This document shows, piece after piece, positions 16,101-60,012 of a stretch of 64,000 bases of DNA. The translations under genes and the position numbers were made by a program. The notes below the pieces were generated by a model. It was not told the origin of the DNA. It saw only the letters and a program-made list of their open reading frames with translations, and searched no databases. Source of the DNA: Onthophagus taurus. Taxonomy: Eukaryota; Arthropoda; Insecta; Coleoptera; Scarabaeidae. Location: contig NC_091967.1 in the NCBI RefSeq assembly GCF_036711975.1, positions 8,122,001-8,186,000 of the forward strand, given 5' to 3'. Numbering within the stretch: the stretch's first letter is position 1; each line of letters opens with the position of its first letter.

Positions 16101-18639
16101 AGCCAACACTCATTATGATTTTTACCAAAAAAATAAAATTTTTTGAAAAGAAAAATCAAATTATTTCTTTTATTTCTATATAGCGGTTGAGTAGTTGTTG
16201 ACCTTCTAAAAAAATAATAAAAATAGTGGCGCACGTCCAACTTGAGAACACTCCCACCTCGTTTATTAACAAAACAATTAATAAATTCAGCATCCCATTA
16301 AAGATTATTAATGAAGGCTGCGCCACAATGGGCATAAATTGAACAATGGATATTTCGGATGCTATCTCGCCCGGGAGGAGTTGATAATTAATGCGGTTAT
16401 TGATAAATATCTCTCTTCTTCAACGGCGTCCCAGCTCCACTCAAGGTTGATTCAGAAACGTTTATAATTTAAGTTATAATTTTCGTTTTATAAATTTGAT
16501 TTAATTATAAGATGTTTTTGATAATTTTCGATTCAAATTCGTTTTAAAAAAGCTTTTTAATCGATAAATTTGATTGTTATTAATTTTGTAATAAAAAATA
16601 AGTGAAATTGTGGTTAGTCTGAATCGGGCGCGGCTTCGAAGGCCGATTAATTTCGCCAACAATAACAGTTATTAAAATTACCGTCAAATATGTACCGGCG
16701 CGCCGGGTTCATTATTGTGTTGTCAGCGTAAATAACGTGTGGCAGGCCGGGCAACGTTCGAGGCGAAGTCTCGTCGGGGATTAAATTTAAGGCTCGATAA
16801 CGTTCCAATTATAATAAAAGCAATTACGGGGGCCTCCGGGACTGAATTTATTATAAATAACAATCCCTGATTTTATCAATTATTACGTTTTTGAGTTTTT
16901 TACAATCAACAAAAAATTCATAAATCTCCAAGTAATCAATTTCGTCGATTTGCCTCTTGTAAACATAAAAAGGTGCGAGACCTAAAACCACAAAAGATAC
17001 CGAAAACTTCCAGAAAAAAAAGATTCTTCAATTGTATACATTCAGAATTGAACTAATAATAAAATTCAGAGGCACACTTTTAGTCCTATTGTATTCTCTC
17101 CACGGTCAGCTGTTAACCGACACGGATACAATACGAAAAGAAAAAAAGGGGGCCGGTGCGAATCACTCAGTCAGTTAGTCACTTATATCTCCATTTATAT
17201 CTCCATTTGGGCCCTATGCGATCCGGTGGTTATAGTTCGACCCTCAACTTCAAACTCTCTTTATATGTTAACTACACGGTCATTAAGTGCGACAAAGCCA
17301 CGTCTTTCTTCGCCGAAATATTCACACGACGTGAAACGCTGCGGGACACAAATTTGTGCGGCGCGTTACCTGAATTTCGACTTCTTTTTCTTCCCTTTCT
17401 TCATTATATTTATGCGCGTGTATAGAAAAGGAGGACTCCGTTCGGTTTCTTTGCTTCCATTTCAGAAAAAGAAGAGGAATAGTTACCTCGTGTTTTGCCA
17501 CGTTGATTTCACGTCACTTCGAAAACCGGTGATTAAGTGGTTTTCTGATGCCTTTGGTCAAACGGCTTTCAAGTTTCCTTTTGTTAAATATGAAATGTTC
17601 TTTTCTTTCTTTTTGTTGTCCTCAAGTGGTTGTTATTGACGCGTGTTTAACTATAATACCTGGCGCTAAGTTGAATAATCAGTTAATATAAAATATGGTT
17701 TTTCACACGAGGAGGGCGTAATAGCTGTTTAATTTAAGTTTTTATGTAGTCAATAACTTTTGATGAGACCATAAAACTTAATTATGTGCGAAATTAAACT
17801 AAAGATCTCATAAATCTTTGTCAAAATTTTATACCAACACATTTATTACAGCTATAACTTGGTTCTCAGTTACATGATCACTTAGGATCACTCATAAGCA
17901 GAAACTGAAATATGCAGAAAATTGACATTTTCATGATTCATTTCCATATCATATCATCTATCCAGAAAATTATACGAAGGGAGGAGGCGCAGTAGTAATC
18001 CAAGGAAATATTGTGCACTGTCTAGATTCGTCAATATAAAGAACCAACTTTCAAGTTGGAGTTTTTGGTGCCAACACATGGAAAAAAAGTTCATGGTCCA
18101 TTTATTGCCCACCCAGGCATAACAAAAGGTCATGAACTGAAAACAGCAATTGAATAACTGGGCTCCACAGTACAAAAACCCTACATCTTGGCCAACAGAA
18201 CCATGAAAAAATCTTAATTCAGCAAACCTTAATCATAAGCATTCAGAATTTTGAGCACTTCGTGGTGATTTTGACACTAAGGAAGGTGTGATTAATTAGC
18301 AGGGAAGTGAAGCGCATATTAGTGATCAGAACTACGAACTGGAAATGTTTCAAAATCGAATTGTATCGTAGGATTAATTCGTATGTACCATTAAAAACCA
18401 AATATTAACTCGATTGAGAAGCGGAGTATGAACATCCAGACTGCGGCAAGGAATAATCAGGAGGTACTGTCAAGAAATCAAAAAAATGTTAAGCAAACTA
18501 TAACCCAAGGGAAGATAACGTTGTGGCCGAAATGATACCAGTATTAAGAGACCCGGGAATCGTTGTGTATGGCCCAAGCACTGGTCTAAATCGATATATG
18601 TGATGTTGCAAATAATAACAGAAAGCCTATAAAGCTCTA
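13191..18639. other. Intergenic sequence, no gene seen
   Basis: Contains GC-richer islands at about 13,540-13,790, 14,180-14,350, 16,240-16,460 and 16,620-16,870, rich in AATTA/TTAAT motifs and separated by AT-rich DNA. No splice-consistent coding exon was found. The stretch 17,950-18,640 may be the decayed 5' part of the adjoining retrotransposon, but no motif confirms that. Confidence 0.5.
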
Positions 18640-19370
18640 TATATTGTCACAACTACTACCGAAACAATCTGGCTTTGTGCCAAGGTATGGAAAAAAGGCC
18701 AGAAAATTACTTATTTATACTTTATAGATTACACAAAGGCCTTTGATTGCGTTCAATGTCACAATCTCTGGCATATCCTTAATGAAATGAACATACCAAG
18801 ACACTTCATAACCAACATGAAGACTCTCTACAAGAATAACACAGCATACTTAAGAGTTGAGACCGAGCTGATTGACCCATTTCTGGTGGAAAATGATGTA
18901 GATAAGGGTGCATACTCAGTTCCCTCTTATTCAACATCTACGGCGAGCGGACCATGAGGAAAACCTTGGAAGACTGGAATGGAGGAATAACAATAGGAGG
19001 TGGAAAATGATGGTATCATTATTACTCAACGACCTCATCGGGAGAGTAGAAAACTAAAATTTTGATAATTAACTTTGAGGGCTTGAAATAAGGAAGATGA
19101 GCAATATCGACACAGTCAATACTTTCATCTACCTTGTCTCATTAATCTCTAACGAAGAAGGCAGCGGAGAGATTAGCAGGAAAAGCGTCCTAGCTAAGGA
19201 AGTCATGACTAGACTAACAAACAAGAACATAACAAGGCTGATGAGGAGGCTGGTCTTCTCTATCTTTCTTTTCAGATCAGAGTGCTGGTTGTTAAAAATA
19301 GCAGACAAAAAGAAAATCGATGCCCTGAAAAATCCATTGAAGCAAATTACCCAATCAAAGTGAGAAACCT
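18640..19370 (+). pseudogene. Decayed non-LTR retrotransposon reverse transcriptase
   Basis: Frames on the plus strand give PKQSGFVPRYGKKARK (RT block with the usual Q.GF.PG..T), then FIDYTKAFDCVQCHNLWHIL (the F.D..KAFD catalytic block). After a frameshift comes CILSSLLFNIYGERTMRKTL (the G...SP.LFN.Y block), and a broken version of the YADD region follows. Further down, 19,097-19,363, is the C-terminal piece with YLVSLISNEE and FRSECWLLKIADKKKIDA, typical of insect LINEs with an apurinic endonuclease. Frameshifts and stops show it is inactive. Confidence 0.88.
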
Positions 19371-51743: not shown

Positions 51744-54700
51744 ATGTTTCTAAAGTGGTTTATGATAAGTTTTGTGTTATTAGGTGAGATAAACAATATT
51801 TTAAATTTGTTCCAATAACCTTGTTTTTTTTAAAACTTTCCATTTTCAGGATCTTTAACCGTAACAAATTGTATCGAATTAAAATCGTACATTTCATCAC
51901 AAGGTCTCCACGGAACAATCTCATTTATTTACCACCAAAATAAAACTGTAATTTTAAAAACCGATTTAGAATTAACTCTTCAATATGCATCACAAACTCT
52001 TTCTTGGTACCTTATGGAATTCCCTGTTGATTATTCAACCATTGAAAATCGATGTTCATCAGAAAAGTTGGGAAAGAAATTGATTAATTTCGATGAAATA
52101 TTTGGATATTTAATTTTACCAGATAATAATACCATTGAAATAGCAACGAATAAACTTGATTTAACCGGAATTAAGGGGCTTTATGGAAAATCTTTGTTGT
52201 TAAAAAACTTGGAAACTAATTCTTATGCATGTTCTTCAATAACACTCGTTGATAAAGTTTTAGAGAAAACCGCAGTTGCGCGATTTTATACTCCCATAGC
52301 TGGGATGGTTTCTTTCCGTTGGTTCTCAACCAAAAATAATAACAAAGAAATGTTAATTTCAACCGATTTATACCGAGTTGGAGACGTCGAAAAAATTGGA
52401 AAAATCGATGTTACAGAACACAATTGGAAAATTTTTGTTACCGACATCTTAGAAGGACATAAAGGAAGATCCGAAGAAAATTGCAACATGTTACAATTAA
52501 TTTTCGACCCAGATAATTCAGGAAATAATCAAACAATGGGTGATATCGATTTACGAGTAGGAAAAGTTAAAGTATCGGGCGATAAAAAGAAACGATATAA
52601 AACATTATTTAGGGACGAAACTTTAACGTTATTACCAAACGATTTAACGGGAGTGCGAAGAAGATTATACTTGGTGATATTTAGAAATAAACATCCCGAT
52701 AGTTTTTTAGCATGTGCTAAAATCCAATATGAACATCCAATTAATGCAAAGTAAGTTAGTTATTTAATTATGCAAAAAAATTTCGCTATCATGTATCAAA
52801 CAACATTTTTTCGAAAACTGCGTGTTCTAAAGTTTATACATTAATAAAACGACCAAATTCAATAATGACATTTAGAATTCAATTAATGTTACATACGTCA
52901 ATCAACTAAACGTCACATCGACTTAACCTCACATATTGAACAAATGTGCTATTATAAATTTGCATTTAAACATGAAATGAAACGATAAAACAATTAAATG
53001 TTGATCATTTTGTGTTTATAATTTGTTCATAACAATAAATCAACAATTAATAGGATCAAATTTTTTGATTGTAGTAGCTGGACGTAAGTCTTTTCCGTCC
53101 AGGACGTAAGTTATTTATGAAACAGTGTGTGAAGTTAGCAACTTAGCAAAAATTAGTTTCATACAATATTTTATCTACGAACTAAAAATTATTAATTAAT
53201 TAATAAATGTATAATTTTTTAAACTATCAAAAAATCATTTGATAGTTGATTGTTTCATTTGATCTTTGATAGGAGAACTTGGGACTAATTGTATGTCGAA
53301 ATCCCACCGTAAGATGGCATTAGCGTCTATACTGAAATAATTTAATTAAACTAACAATTTTATTATTAATAGTGGGAATGATAAGAGACAGCAATAACAA
53401 TTATTACCAGTATCATTCTTTTAATTTAAAAAGTATAGATTCCAATTCATGTTATATTTTTAAATTTGCCGCTAAGAATTAAAGGTTAAAGTTTGTCCAG
53501 AATGACAGATGAAAACGTCATTTTAAAGTAATTTTTCGGTAAGAGTATAATAAAGTAATAATGGTATGCGTTTTTATCCCTTTTTTTAACAAAAATAAAA
53601 TAAATTTTGACAATGTAGGGAATATGTAGCAGTTGGTAACACTTGAAAATAGAAATTTGAATTGACAGTTAGAAATTGTCAAAACCCAAAAGTATTAACC
53701 TGAAAAAAATGTTCCCGAAATAAGAGTAATTGCTCAGAGTTCCATTAAAAGACTACTTCCAGAGAAAACAACAGTACGCTAAATTCCTAAATTTCAATTC
53801 AAATTCTTACATTGGGAACTAGAAAAATTAATGACCCAATGTCATCAACTTGAACTGGTTCCATAAAATGTTACTAAAATCTCATTAGAGCATCAGATGA
53901 GTACTGTAATAGCCTAATAGCTTTCATTACCGTCGCGAATTACGAAATGTTGTATATTTTTATTGAACTGAAACTAGAACTAACACTAGAACTAGAAAGT
54001 TTCGGGTTTAGCCGTCTTGAGAGACTTGCGGCTAAATCAGAATGTTTCTAGTTCTCGGTCTAGTGTTAGTTTTACACTAGCATTTATCATTAGAACTAAC
54101 ACAAGGCCTAAAACTAGAATCATTTATCCATCAGTCTAGTGTTAGTACTAGTTTTGCACAAGCACTATCATTGGAATTAACACAAGACCTAAAACTAGAA
54201 TCATTCGAGTTTAACCGTCTTGAGAGACGTACGGCTAAATCCGAATGTTTCTAGTTCTCGGTCTAGTGTTAATTCTAGTTTTACACTAGCACGGCAACAT
54301 CTCGAATTTCCCTAGTGTAATTTTTACTTAAAACTGACCAATAGCAACCCTTCTTTTTAGCGCTTTAATTTGAAAACACTTTTCCGAATTAAAAAATAGA
54401 GTATACGCAAGAGTCAACTTTTAATAACAGTTTTCGAAAAAATTAAATTTTTTGTCAGTTTAAATTTAATACAAACTTTTTTTATTTAAGAGTTATTCTG
54501 CAATCCGGAGGAATTAAAGGAGAAATTAAACTATCACAACACAATTTATTTGAACCAACATTTATCGATTTTAACATAACAACAGCTCGTGATGATATCG
54601 AAACAAAGTTGGTTTATTCTTCGTCAATCGGAGCCTATAAAATTCACGAATTACCTTTGAGCCCATCAAAAACATTCGATCCTTATAATAGGTTATGTTT

Positions 54701-57700
54701 AACAAGTAAATTTATATTTAACCCCTTAAAAAATGATATCAACGTTATCCCAAACGGTATTTTATAAGCTCAAAAATGTTTTTTTATTATACTTAAATAT
54801 TTGTTTAGGTTATGGAACGCAAGATCAATATCCAATTGGAGACCTTTCTGGAAAACTTTTAGGTCGTAACTCAGAAAAATCATTAATTGAAAACAGCCAA
54901 GAATTACTCGGAAAATATTGGGATACTTATTTACCGTTACAAGGTCAATTTTCTGTTGTAAATCGAGCTTTCGTTCTTTATAAATTAGAAGAACTTGATA
55001 AAAATGATATGTACATTAATAATCCGATGCAAGTTTGGATTTGCGGGACTATCACTTTATACGATCAAGATTTTAAACATTTACAACCAATGTTTACGGC
55101 TCAAGTATTATTTCGATATCCAATAGTAGGAAGGATCGTTTTTCGACAACCTTCCGATGAACCATGGAGAGATACTTCAATTTTTTTTGATTATTTAGTT
55201 CACGCCGATGGTTCTAACCTAAATAATTCAGCCGAGCATCGTTGGGCAATTCACGATTTACCACCGGGAAAAGATTTTTACGATTGGCAAAATCGTTGTA
55301 TGAGTGTTGGAGATATTTATAATCCATTTAAAGTAAAAAAAAATACTCCCTCCGCCCAGAAATAAGTGTCCGATATCGATTTTTTTTTTTCAAGAATTAA
55401 GAAAAGGCGGTCTTGCTTTTAAACGTCAGTAAAAAGTTTTGTAATTTTTCCTACAGTATAAGTTTTTAATCCAAAAACGACTTTTCAAGACCTGAAATAA
55501 AAATTGTTTTCTCGACGGATGTGCAAGGGAGGACTTTTCTAGCCACATTCCAATCCATATTTGAGGGGCGCTTTTCCATGCAGGGATAGCCCGCTGTGAC
55601 ATTATCAGCTCCCATCATCAAGCTTCCTGGTAAGTGAGTTTGCATGAGAAGCTCTAATGAAGCTCTGCTGGTGACAATGAAGCTTCAAATAGAACTGGGT
55701 TCAAAATCAAAATGTTATGTCAGCCACCCAATCCCGATACAAACGTCTTAGATTAGGCTCTTTTAATGCAATTCAGTCATCGCAGCAACAATCGGCTTGC
55801 TAAACTGTAGACGAAATAATTCTTGTTGTTGAAAAAGCCTTTTCCGAATTGAGTGTTCTTTCGCACCAACAGTGTATGGTAGAAATCATGAAAGTAGATG
55901 GAGACAATAATTACAAAGTGTGGCATATAAATAAAGATCATTTACAGAGAGGTTTCCAGTTTTTATAAATTTTTATTTTGGGCTTTATCAACATACAAAA
56001 GATATCATCAATTCAAATACTTAAATGACCGTCAAATGTTTCTTAGAAACAATATTTGTATTGATAGCTAAGTTTCAATAAATTAATTTTTAAGGAAATC
56101 GGACACTTATTTCTGAACGGAGGGAATAATTAAAAAATTTGACATTTGAGGTGATATAATATATTTTTTTAGATTGATTTAGATAAATCAGCACCATCAG
56201 AAGGATGTTACTTAGATAGTATGGGTTATTGTCGAGTTGGTGATTTATCAACTAGATTGGGACCTTTAGAAATTGCGGGGAAAAAAATTGATAGCGATCG
56301 AATAACTAGAAAGTATCTAATCGACTCTTATTTACCATTAACGGGTCCTCACACAATTTTAGGAAAATCGTTTGTAATTTATGATGATCACGGGCCAAAA
56401 GCGCGCGGGGAAAGAATGGCTTGTTCAATGTAAAAAATTTAAATAAAATTACCTTAATTTGAATCAATTAATTGATTCTTTTAGAATTGGTGGAATTTAT
56501 CGTCGAAAAGCTGTAGCTCGAGATTGGTTTCCAAACGGGGATCCATTAACTGTAAAAGGAAAAATAGAATTTTATCAACAAACCGAATATGATATCACAA
56601 ATATTGAGGTTGATTTAGATGGTTTAGATGATAATTCCGGGTATCATATTCACATGGTAAAATTTTACATTTTAAATGTAATTAATTTATATAAAAACAA
56701 ATTTTTTAGACCCCTATAGAAGAAAATTTGGAATTTCCATGCGAAGCCACTACTTTATACGGCCATTGGAATCCATTAATGGTTTCACCATTATCTTCAC
56801 CACGAACATATCACGGAACATCAGATCAATATGAAATGGGTGATTTAAGTGGAAAATTTGGTGGCTTAGATAATCATACTTTATTTAAGGGGGCTTATAA
56901 CGATACTATGTTACCGTTATTTGGTCCTTCTAGTATTTTAGGACGATCTATCGTTATTCATAAACGAGTTAGTGCCGAAATTATTAAAAAAAAACGTTTT
57001 AAATATTAAATTTTTTAGTTTGACAGTCGTCGTTGGGCTTGCACAACTATAGAACGTGGATATAGTCCATCGGAAGCACGAGAATTACGTGCCATCGCAT
57101 CGTTTCATCACCCCGATGGGTTCGCTTATGGTTACTTAAGAATGACTCAATTAATTTATAATGATGGAAGTGCAAGTGATACGGTCATCGAGGTAAAATT
57201 GCGACATCCTGGAAAATTCGATAGAAATATTGTAAGAAAAAATTAACATAAAAAAATAATTATCACAACATTTAATTAATTTCCAGACGAGAAATCATAA
57301 TTTTGCGATTTATGTTAACCCAGTTGGTGTTGACGCTTCTGTTAAAACCCAAAATACAAGATGTGTTGCTGCTGGTTATGTTTGGAATCCTTATTATACA
57401 CAATTAGCTGATCCCTTAAATGTAAACATAACATATTTTATACATTTTTTTTTTTATTTTAAAAATTCGTTTTTAGTCTGAACTTTATAATCAAGAATGT
57501 GGTCCTGAAAATCCATTAAGATGTTACGTAGGCGATTTATCAGCACGATTAGGTACGATTGATATAGGTTTAGAACGGAAAGTTTTGGTCGATCCAAATT
57601 TTCCATTGGAAGGTGTTGAGAATGCAATGGGAAGATCAATCGTAATTTTAAGCCCTAATAAAGATTCCAGAAGATACGCATGCGCTAATATTGAACCAGA

Positions 57701-58190
57701 TTATGATATAATTAAATATGCAAACATCGAAAAACCGCCACGATTTGTTCTGTAAATAAAAAAAAATCTCATTTTCAATTTATTTATAAATTATGTTTTT
57801 AGAGCACAATTTATTGATGATGTCAGAGAAGTTATGGGAATTCCCGAATGGATGTTAACCGTTGATTCACGAAAAGTACGAACGTTACATAACAACGCTT
57901 GCGTACAATTTTTGATGCATTTCAAAGGACCAATTGCGGGACAATTGGAACAAGATTTTAGTAGATTACTTTCGATAGGAAGACTCGATTCACCGACTTT
58001 ATACATTCCAGGGTTTATTAATACAAAGAGAAAAGTAAAGCTTTCCTATAAACAATGCGGAATGAGAGATCCTAATGAGAAAAAAGCAAAAAAGAATTTT
58101 TTTAGTATAAGCCAAGGATATAATATGAGAATTAATAACATTTTGAATATTTTTATAACAATTACAGTTACCAAATTTGTGATTTTATAA
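51744..58190 (+). CDS. Rsod: Multi-domain Related-to-SOD protein (six SOD-like repeats)
   Basis: 1125 residues from 11 exons: 51744-51783, 51850-52750, 54491-54705, 54809-55332, 56173-56429, 56485-56656, 56710-56967, 57019-57231, 57287-57421, 57477-57751, 57803-58190; all phases agree. An N-terminal hydrophobic stretch (FLKWFMISFVLLG) is a likely signal peptide and the C-terminal FITITVTKFVIL tail suggests a GPI or membrane anchor, so it is probably extracellular. Six Cu/Zn-SOD-like repeats lie at about 22-135, 140-312, 313-455, 460-655, 656-805 and 806-960; a further strand pair (FKGPIAGQL, near 1030) may begin a seventh. Five repeats have lost metal ligands: repeat 4 reads WAIH and GDIYNP, repeat 6 FAIY and GYVWNP. 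Repeat 5 keeps copper ligands H700, H702, H722 and H787, zinc ligands H738 and D748, R794, and C714/C797; only the third zinc histidine is replaced (YEMGDLSG). Catalysis is unproven. Alternative view: a structural SOD-fold adhesion protein. Confidence 0.9.
53948..54293. repeat. Palindrome locus E of the CTAG-rich family, in Rsod intron 2
   Basis: TATTTTTATTGAACTGAAAC leads into a palindrome around GGGTTTAGCCGTCTTGAGAG, then a truncated copy, then another full palindrome (about 54,175-54,280, core GTTTAACCGTCTTGAGAGAC). Same flanks and spacers as the desert arrays. It lies in the 1.74-kb intron 2, by far the longest in the gene. Confidence 0.9.
55346..56126. mobile_element. Tc1/mariner-type TIR element in Rsod intron 4
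   Basis: CTCCCTCCGCCCAGAAATAA with GTGTCCGAT at the left is mirrored by ATCGGACAC and TTATTTCTGAACGGAGGGAA at the right. A TA dinucleotide sits on each side (55344-55345 and 56127-56128), the target duplication expected of the Tc1/mariner superfamily. Length is 781 bp. A decayed coding stretch near 55,830-55,965 (QQCMVEIMKVDGDN, then VWHINKDHLQRGF) may be transposase or captured sequence. The insertion begins 13 nt after the exon 4 splice donor. Confidence 0.88.
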
Positions 58191-58224: not shown

Positions 58225-58255
58225 AATTCAACGAAATTAAAAACGCCATCTTATA

Positions 58256-58790
58256 ACCAACAAAAAAACTAACCATGTTAAGTCATTCCTGTCAAATCAA
58301 CCATTTTAGGTTATGTTTATAATCTCTAAAATTACAACAATGTTATTATGATACAATTTAAAAAGTGAATCAAGGAAATTTAGCATGTATTGGTTTTTGC
58401 ATATCCAGAAATAAATACTCAGAACCACATATAACCTACAAAAAAACTAACCATCTTAAGTCATTCCTGTCAAATCAACCATTTTAGGTTATGTTTATAA
58501 TCACTAAAATTACATCAATTTTATTATGATACAATTTAAAGAGTGAATCGAGGATATTTAGCATGTATTGGTTTCTGTATATCCAGAAATAAATACATAC
58601 AATCACATATAAACACCAAAAGATAACCATATTAAGTCATTCCTGTCAAATCAACCATTTTAGGTTATGTTTATAATCTCTAAAATTACAGTAATTTTAT
58701 TATGATACAATTTAAAGAGTGAATCCAGGAAATTTAGCATGCATCGGTTTCTGTATATCAACAAGTAGATACATAGGACCAGCGATTCCT
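58256..58790 (-). repeat. Tandem repeat of about 177 bp derived from the LanC-like 3' end
   Basis: Three copies start around AACCAT(G/C/A)TTAAGTCATTCC at 58,271, 58,449 and 58,625 (offsets 178 and 176). The third overlaps the real end of the LanC-like gene. Copies 1 and 2 hold the 3' UTR and the last 20 or so codons (AGTGAATC, AGGAAATTTAGCATG on the plus strand) with mutations, so they are a partial tandem duplication of the gene terminus. Confidence 0.9.
58696..58701 (-). promoter_or_regulatory. Polyadenylation signal AATAAA for the LanC-like gene
   Basis: TTTATT on the plus strand reads AATAAA on the minus strand, only 10 bases after the stop codon, implying a very short 3' UTR. The tandem copies farther on carry the same signal. 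Confidence 0.6.
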
Positions 58791-60012
58791 TCAAATAAAG
58801 ACAAAGGTCTGTCGGGTTCGTGTTCTTCATGTTCCTTCGTATAATCAATACACCATTCGGCAAATTTAATGGCGCGATATAAATGTTTCAAATCTTTCGT
58901 CGTCTGATACATTTCTAAAAAGCAATAAGCATTCCCAGAAACACCATGACACAAACTATAACCTTTCGTAATTAATCCCCTGTTCCATACAACTTCAGCT
59001 GATTTTAAAGCCATCTGTAAATACTTTTGGTCGCCAAAAACTTTATAAGCTTCACTATACATAAAAACGAAACCAGGGGCTCCATGACACCATTGAATAT
59101 ATTTATCACTTTGTGATCCTAACGATGATGGAAAATTACCTGATGCAAACTTTTTACTTGTTAAATAATCAATTGTTGGTTTAATTAAATCGTTTAATTC
59201 AGATTCTCGGACGTAATTTCTTGCTTGTAATAATAAATACATTATTCCTGACATTCCATGAGCCGCGCCAAGATAATAGGAATCATGCCATTTATATAAA
59301 AGCGGTTGGTTACACATATTATTTCGAGATTCTACTTGACCGGCATTAAAAATTGCTTCAACTACTTTTCTTATTAAATAATCATCTATTGGTGGTGGGG
59401 AAATATGTTTGTTTATGTAAAGGATTGCATATAAATATCCAGCTCGTCCATACATGTACTCATTTGGTAAATCGGCTTTATAATTTATTACAGCCTTTTG
59501 TAATTCTGCTAATTCCTCAATCAAACTTCTTGAAAAAACTACATCACCAAGTTTATATGAAACAACAGCACCTAAAGCTAATGGACCAGCATCTCCACAT
59601 AAAAACGTTAATCGTTTTTTCTTTAAATTATTCAGCATCAATAACCGTTTGACTTCCTTAAATTATTAAATATTTTAAAGTCACTTCACAAACACAATTT
59701 GACTTACCAATAAGTTGGCTTTATCATCGGGATCTTTTAAAAATCTTAACATAGCTATTCCTGAGGTGCCTGTATACACGGTATAATCGTGTGACTGACA
59801 TTGCGAGAGTTGTCTCATACAGGTTTCCCATTTTTCATCTAAACCCGTTACAACTTTATTCAATTTATCAATCTAATTGAAAAAAAAAGGAGTTTTAAAT
59901 GGTTTCTGTTAGAGATGAATTTTACCGTTTTATTTGAAATGACATTTTTAGCTGAGTCTTCTGAATACTCGGGAAAAGGGTTTTCGAAATGTCTCTCAAT
60001 TATTTTAGCCAT
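58712..60012 (-). CDS. LANCL: LanC-like protein (LANCL family)
   Basis: Eukaryotic relative of lantibiotic cyclases. Mammalian LANCLs bind glutathione and zinc and add glutathione to dehydroamino-acid residues in damaged proteins; cytosolic or peripheral membrane. Minus-strand exons are 60012-59926, 59872-59708 and 59656-58712 with GT-AG introns, giving 398 residues, close to human LANCL1 (399). The zinc ligands are C274 (QWCHGAPG), C320 and H321 (LCHGVSGNAY). Other family blocks are YTGTSGIA, LTFLCGDAGPLA, YGRAGYLYA, YYLGAAHGMSGI and SLFEGIAGPMYLL near the end. The start ATG is the first in the exon and gives the NPFPEY segment seen in the family N-terminus. Which vertebrate paralogue is closest cannot be settled by eye. 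It is head to head with RPB2. Confidence 0.96.

Follow-up and report, generated by a model that had tools for sequence, protein, structure and literature searches.

An SOD6/Rsod-type repeat protein of the beetle Onthophagus taurus with a complete predicted copper site in one repeat

A 64,000-nucleotide stretch of the Onthophagus taurus genome (NC_091967.1, positions 8,122,001 to 8,186,000; hereafter the window, in which positions are counted) contains an intact gene for a protein built from tandem superoxide dismutase (SOD)-like repeats. Judged by sequence, a complete copper site is present in the fifth repeat (R5) only. The gene almost certainly belongs to the family of insect SOD6, older annotation name Rsod (PMC1847502; PMC9524095), and its product to the copper-only SOD repeat proteins (CSRPs); it is most likely the SOD6/Rsod orthologue. 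We consider it fairly probable that this protein, itself probably secreted, loads one copper ion in R5 and dismutates superoxide. The main finding is largely in print already for Tribolium castaneum, and the gene described here adds to the known family of CSRPs and insect SOD6 proteins.

Repeats R3 to R6 were aligned to a set of 33 SODs, each of a single domain, drawn from retrieved loci. All four copper columns are occupied by histidine in R5 (H717, H719, H739 and H804), together with R811 in the guiding-arginine column, D765 in the zinc-aspartate column and H755 in one zinc-histidine column, while E762 occupies the last zinc-histidine column (the H80 position). C731 and C814 of R5 align with both disulfide-cysteine columns of the genome's own SODs. 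Copper histidines are sparse elsewhere: one of four in R4 (H551), one of four in R3 (H366), none in R6 and, in a separate profile alignment, none in R1 and R2. An earlier sequence-only reading had proposed that one full copper site is kept inside an SOD-fold scaffold and had named its residues. At the level of sequence the single site was borne out, and the named residues are present in the copper-ligand, arginine, zinc-aspartate, zinc-histidine and cysteine columns, although numbered 17 too low throughout (H700, H702, H722, H738, D748, H787, R794 and C797 are H717, H719, H739, H755, D765, H804, R811 and C814). The loss of copper histidines that it had extended to all other repeats stands for R1, R2 and R6, but R3 and R4 each retain the second histidine.

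R5 is not merely the least diverged repeat, because it keeps a similar number of the 28 other SOD-conserved columns (12) as R4 (11), R6 (11) and R3 (8). By this comparison R5 is selectively complete at the predicted metal site. The copper histidines of R5 (four of four) differ from those of R3, R4 and R6 pooled (2 of 12) with a Fisher p value of 0.008, and from the other conserved columns within R5 with a p value of 0.05; both tests, made within R3 to R6, concern small counts of columns that are not independent.

The gene occupies positions 51744-58190 of the forward strand, where 11 exons, whose ends we picked by eye at GT donors and AG acceptors without transcript data, join into a single uninterrupted reading frame, 1142 codons long before its stop, in agreement with the gene and coordinates first proposed. 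A pseudogene was rejected because no exon or splice junction interrupts the frame. When the protein was searched against its own genome (291 Mb in 33 contigs), at least eight matches were obtained, all inside this gene. Hydrophobic stretches lie at both ends of the protein, in the windows of 15 residues that begin at residues 1 to 10 and in the last 15-16 residues. The signal-peptide-like start suggests that the protein is probably secreted, and the C-terminal stretch is a possible glycosylphosphatidylinositol (GPI) signal.

CSRPs are described as having 4-12 tandem SOD-like domains, usually six, with a short loop VII, an intramolecular disulfide in each domain and a Glu/Asp pair in many but not all of them; they are secreted or GPI-anchored, and the copper site is intact in some domains and absent in some arthropods (PMC13017621). 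The protein encoded here likely has six repeats, R1 being the least certain. Sod_Cu was the sole Pfam family matched by the whole protein. On separate pieces, only R5 (47.5 bits) exceeded the Sod_Cu cut-off of 28.9 bits, R4 (27.2) and R6 (21.2) fell below it, and R1, R2, R3 and the C-terminal tail gave no Sod_Cu match. Profile comparison of pieces with non-overlapping ends found R3 (E 1.7e-9), R4 (3e-12), R5 (4.1e-15) and R6 (7.2e-8), which are at least four tandem SOD-like domains; R3 and R6 are supported mainly via the other repeats, since SODs alone gave E values of 0.016 and 0.0024, respectively. For R2, hhalign gave an E value of 3.4e-7 with one profile and of 0.1, under the best shuffle, with another that also contained viral SODs with long unaligned tails. 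The structure model of R2 (predicted local distance difference test, pLDDT, 70.6) had Cu-only SOD5 as its best Foldseek match in the PDB (E 2.6e-4), and all four PDB matches at E <= 0.001 were Candida Cu-only SOD5. With the profile runs in conflict, the likely assignment of R2 as an SOD repeat leans on this predicted fold, and the models of both R2 and R5 were built from alignments containing SOD rows, which favours an SOD fold. R1 scored 21.0 against a shuffle maximum of 9.2 with one profile and 23.2 against 22.6 with the other. Of the six repeats of the earlier reading, profile comparison thus supports R3 to R6; R2 is supported by its predicted fold and by one of the two profiles, and the signal for R1 is weak. 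The count of six also agrees with the two extra N-terminal SOD-like domains that AlphaFold showed in many CSRPs (PMC13017621). The C-terminal tail was rejected as a seventh repeat; its match came solely via 11 residues overlapping R6, and without the overlap nothing in the tail rose above shuffles in profile comparison. A Pfam match of R1 to ABC2_membrane_3 (E 0.047; 13.2 bits, cut-off 31.6) was taken as chance.

The remaining metal positions of R5 point to the Cu-only SODs. E762 and D765 align with E110 and D113 of Candida SOD5, and this Glu/Asp pair, which replaces the zinc site, is the signature of Cu-only SODs (PMC13017621). The sequence-only reading had noticed YEM in place of RHV; a zinc histidine is indeed lost, but the change is this signature and not an oddity of the gene. 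R3, R4 and R6 retain the aspartate and have Pro, Arg and Tyr, respectively, at the glutamate position, and the repeats other than R5 have lost more of the zinc ligands. Six residues separate H804 from R811 in R5, as against 22 in the genome's own SOD1. The insert that Cu/Zn SODs carry in loop VII is absent from R5 and, by alignment, also from R1, R2, R4 and R6, while R3 has a longer stretch at this position. R5 thus differs from bimetallic Cu/Zn SODs in having E762 at the position of zinc ligand H80 and in lacking a full electrostatic loop VII.

Searches of the PDB preferred Cu-only SOD5 over Cu/Zn SOD narrowly. The profile of the six repeats matched Cu-only SOD5 (4n3t) first (E 4.2e-7), with the best SOD1-derived chain at 7.4e-7, whereas searches with single sequences ranked Cu/Zn SODs first. 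The model of R5, which the earlier reading had suggested building, showed an SOD fold (pLDDT 72.7), and its top three Foldseek rows were Cu-only SOD5 (E 2.6e-8 to 6.9e-8), followed by a Cu/Zn SOD at 9.8e-8. The model preferred Cu-only SOD5 although the 33 SODs in its input alignment all had the complete set of zinc ligands and the only Cu-only type of sequence included was the protein's own R6; the VIA-align rows of the structure comparison were ties. Candida albicans SOD5 (4n3t, 5cu9) resembles R5 in its copper ligands and Glu/Asp pair, and is the first PDB match of the repeat profile and, by Foldseek, of the R5 and R2 models. Unlike the protein described here, SOD5 is fungal and has a single domain; in the profile alignment its sole metal-loop histidine before GDL adjoins E110, leaving no clear partner for H755.

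Among insects, TcSOD6 of Tribolium castaneum is a protein of 1122 amino acids with Sod_Cu domains at 498-647, 663-801 and 818-976 (PMC9046187). It resembles our protein of 1142 amino acids in length, in the order of the three Sod_Cu domains and in an N-terminal region without Sod_Cu. The peptide used to raise the TcSOD6 antiserum (726-738, in the second domain) agrees with residues 743-755 of our protein in 10 of its 13 residues, includes the histidine equivalent to H755 and ends in the same SSPRTYH, so that the second Sod_Cu domain of TcSOD6 corresponds to R5. The three differences indicate that our gene is not that published sequence. The agreement with TcSOD6, through which the gene would be placed in the SOD6/Rsod group (TcSOD6, BmSOD6 and CG31028), covers architecture, length and one 13-residue peptide. 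In TcSOD6, most functional residues are reported as conserved in each domain; in the second domain the metal-binding residues and disulfide cysteines are conserved, and the zinc ligands at one position only (PMC9046187). The same paper counts three SOD domains; it uses neither CSRP nor copper-only as a term, and 'SOD activity' is absent from its main text. Searches of the open-licence literature showed no report on this protein for any beetle besides Tribolium, and a homology search with R5 of viral contigs and prokaryotic genome contigs returned no relative.

The conserved histidine raises the question of whether H739, H755, E762 and D765 may hold zinc via a His2-Glu-Asp arrangement, which would make R5 a hybrid metal centre unlike fungal Cu-only SODs. 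The H755 column is a zinc histidine in all 33 SODs, the SSPRTYH ending is shared with the Tribolium peptide (PMC9046187), and CSRP domains of Hyotissa are mutated at two zinc histidines (PMC12784942), so that one kept histidine would differ. However, the alignment of H755 is insecure because R5 has a longer loop than the Cu/Zn SODs, and confidence in the model is lowest in this loop (pLDDT 50 for model block 81-90, and under 50 at 87-89), and the Tribolium paper counts a single conserved zinc-ligand position in the matching domain. We regard a zinc-holding centre of this kind as improbable. A broader scenario, to which we give only slightly more credence and which we propose as a speculation, is that some insects keep an SOD-repeat protein reduced to one catalytic domain with a metal centre of neither the Cu/Zn nor the simple Cu-only type. 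In it, the copper site would be accompanied by a remnant zinc position (H739, H755, E762 and D765), apparently common to this species and Tribolium, and moths may have lost the copper entirely.

Published CSRPs differ in how much copper coordination they retain. The oyster CSRP shares with our protein the tandem SOD-like domains, the Glu/Asp signature, the short loop VII, copper-less N-terminal repeats, a signal-peptide-like start and a hydrophobic C-terminus; it is credited with copper sites in repeats 3-6 (PMC13017621), whereas our protein has one, by sequence, in R5 only. BmSOD6 of Bombyx mori (PMC6379424) is also a large protein; it carries a secretion signal, and its three Sod_Cu domains follow an N-terminal region that is longer. 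Compared by description, it differs in having no obvious copper site in any domain, according to a 2026 review in which the six domains of arthropod CSRPs including that of Bombyx lack one (PMC13017621). In the introduction of the Tribolium paper, BmSOD6 is said to likely bind copper and zinc (PMC9046187); the two papers disagree on this point. On its predicted ligands, the gene described here is an exception to the copper-free arthropod CSRPs of the review and sides with Tribolium.

These observations are best accommodated by a protein that is probably secreted and would arrive outside the cell free of copper. One copper ion would then load at the open site of R5 formed by H717, H719, H739 and H804, braced by E762 and D765 and with R811 nearby, and R5 would dismutate superoxide, either in the haemolymph or on the surface of cells; TcSOD6 was detected in haemolymph (PMC9046187). 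R1-R4 and R6 would be degenerate SOD barrels that may serve as scaffold or folding partners, in spacing or in binding. From the residues present, a working SOD in R5 seems somewhat more probable than its absence, and catalysis within the CSRP family is supported by the SOD activity of the oyster protein, by the review's account (PMC13017621). Of the three functions first considered, we rank that of an active extracellular SOD as the most likely; we found no evidence for a copper-binding receptor or for a copper store, and a store is also disfavoured because a single site in 1142 residues would be a poor one.

The main competitor of a dismutating R5 is a pseudoenzyme with a copper-independent extracellular role, such as has been suggested for the CSRPs of Bombyx and tardigrades, in which the R5 site would be a leftover that this lineage has yet to lose. 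Copper ligands have been lost from the other repeats, copper-less arthropod CSRPs are still expressed (PMC13017621), and RNA interference (RNAi) against TcSOD6 in the pupa resulted in rigid legs and inhibited axon development; the authors judged control of reactive oxygen species insufficient to account for their results (PMC9046187). Against this, the four copper histidines, the arginine, the aspartate, the glutamate and the cysteine pair are retained together in R5, even though R5 has lost 16 of the 28 other SOD-conserved columns, gaps included. Tribolium is also reported to retain the site, with a histidine at the H755 position of its peptide (PMC9046187). We therefore consider the pseudoenzyme unlikely, albeit a serious alternative, and prefer dismutation at R5.

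Table 1. Exons, repeats and selected codons of the SOD-repeat gene, and other annotated features of the window
Feature	Position	Strand	Remarks
Exon 1	51744..51783	+	Start codon and hydrophobic, signal-peptide-like N-terminus
Exon 2	51850..52750	+	R1, R2 and beginning of R3
Exon 3	54491..54756	+	
Exon 4	54809..55332	+	
Exon 5	56173..56429	+	
Exon 6	56485..56656	+	
Exon 7	56710..56967	+	C731 56740-56742, H739 56764-56766, H755
Exon 7, further codons		+	E762 56833-56835, D765 56842-56844, H804 56959-56961
Exon 8	57019..57231	+	R811 57031-57033, C814 57040-57042
Exon 9	57287..57421	+	
Exon 10	57477..57751	+	
Exon 11	57803..58190	+	C-terminal tail, not similar to SOD; last 15-16 residues hydrophobic; stop
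Codons H717, I718, H719	56645..56653	+	Predicted copper ligands, SOD1 H46 and H48 positions
R1	51873..52241	+	Residues 22-144; no copper ligands; SOD similarity weak
R2	52263..52730	+	Residues 152-307; no copper ligands
R3	52731..55059	+	Residues 308-486, exons 2-4; one of four copper histidines (H366)
R4	55087..56488	+	Residues 496-664, exons 4-6; one of four copper histidines (H551)
R5	56501..57057	+	Residues 669-819, exons 6-8; full predicted copper site
R6	57076..57698	+	Residues 826-996, exons 8-10; no copper histidine of four
Reverse-transcriptase fragment	18619-18954		Pfam, below cut-off
Ala_racemase_N	47600		Pfam, below cut-off
EF-hand protein	49844		Pfam
LANC_like	58715-59662	-	Pfam
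RNA polymerase Rpb2 domains	from 60462		Pfam; Pfam-annotated neighbours extend to 62471

Several other SOD-related genes were observed in the genome. A gene resembling the copper chaperone CCS (contig C7, 6414919-6415269, reverse strand) has an HMA domain (Pfam HMA, 37.1 bits) in which MTCEKC is retained, whereas for flying insects, Drosophila and Bombyx among them, CCS is described as being without the ATX1 copper site (PMC13017621). Near an extracellular-type SOD lies a second SOD-like gene (contig C2, 11773233-11775321, forward strand) with VIT at the position of the last copper histidine; its product may thus be a further SOD in which the copper site is disrupted. Two SOD1-like frames (contigs C11 and C3) are each intronless and open over most of the domain, and an SOD1 fragment lies about 9.5 kb before one of them; these frames and the fragment are possible retrocopies.

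Within and beside the SOD-repeat gene, three repetitive tracts were seen. Intron 4 contains an element (55341-56131) with 37-nucleotide inverted ends, 86% complementary, starting 8 bases into the intron, and in intron 2 (53966-54281) a CTAGAACTA-rich unit recurs in nested repeats, both palindromic and direct. Between the gene and its LanC-like neighbour, positions 58252-58783 comprise three direct repeats of 178 nucleotides, the second 92% and the third 84% identical to the first.

The review treats the arthropod CSRPs that it names as copper-free (PMC13017621), while this gene and, reportedly, Tribolium SOD6 keep one site. The loss of the copper site is thus not general in insects, because the gene of Onthophagus taurus retains one that is, as far as its residues tell, complete. 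Whether the leg and axon phenotype depends on the copper site or is independent of copper would be a question accessible in a beetle with efficient RNAi.
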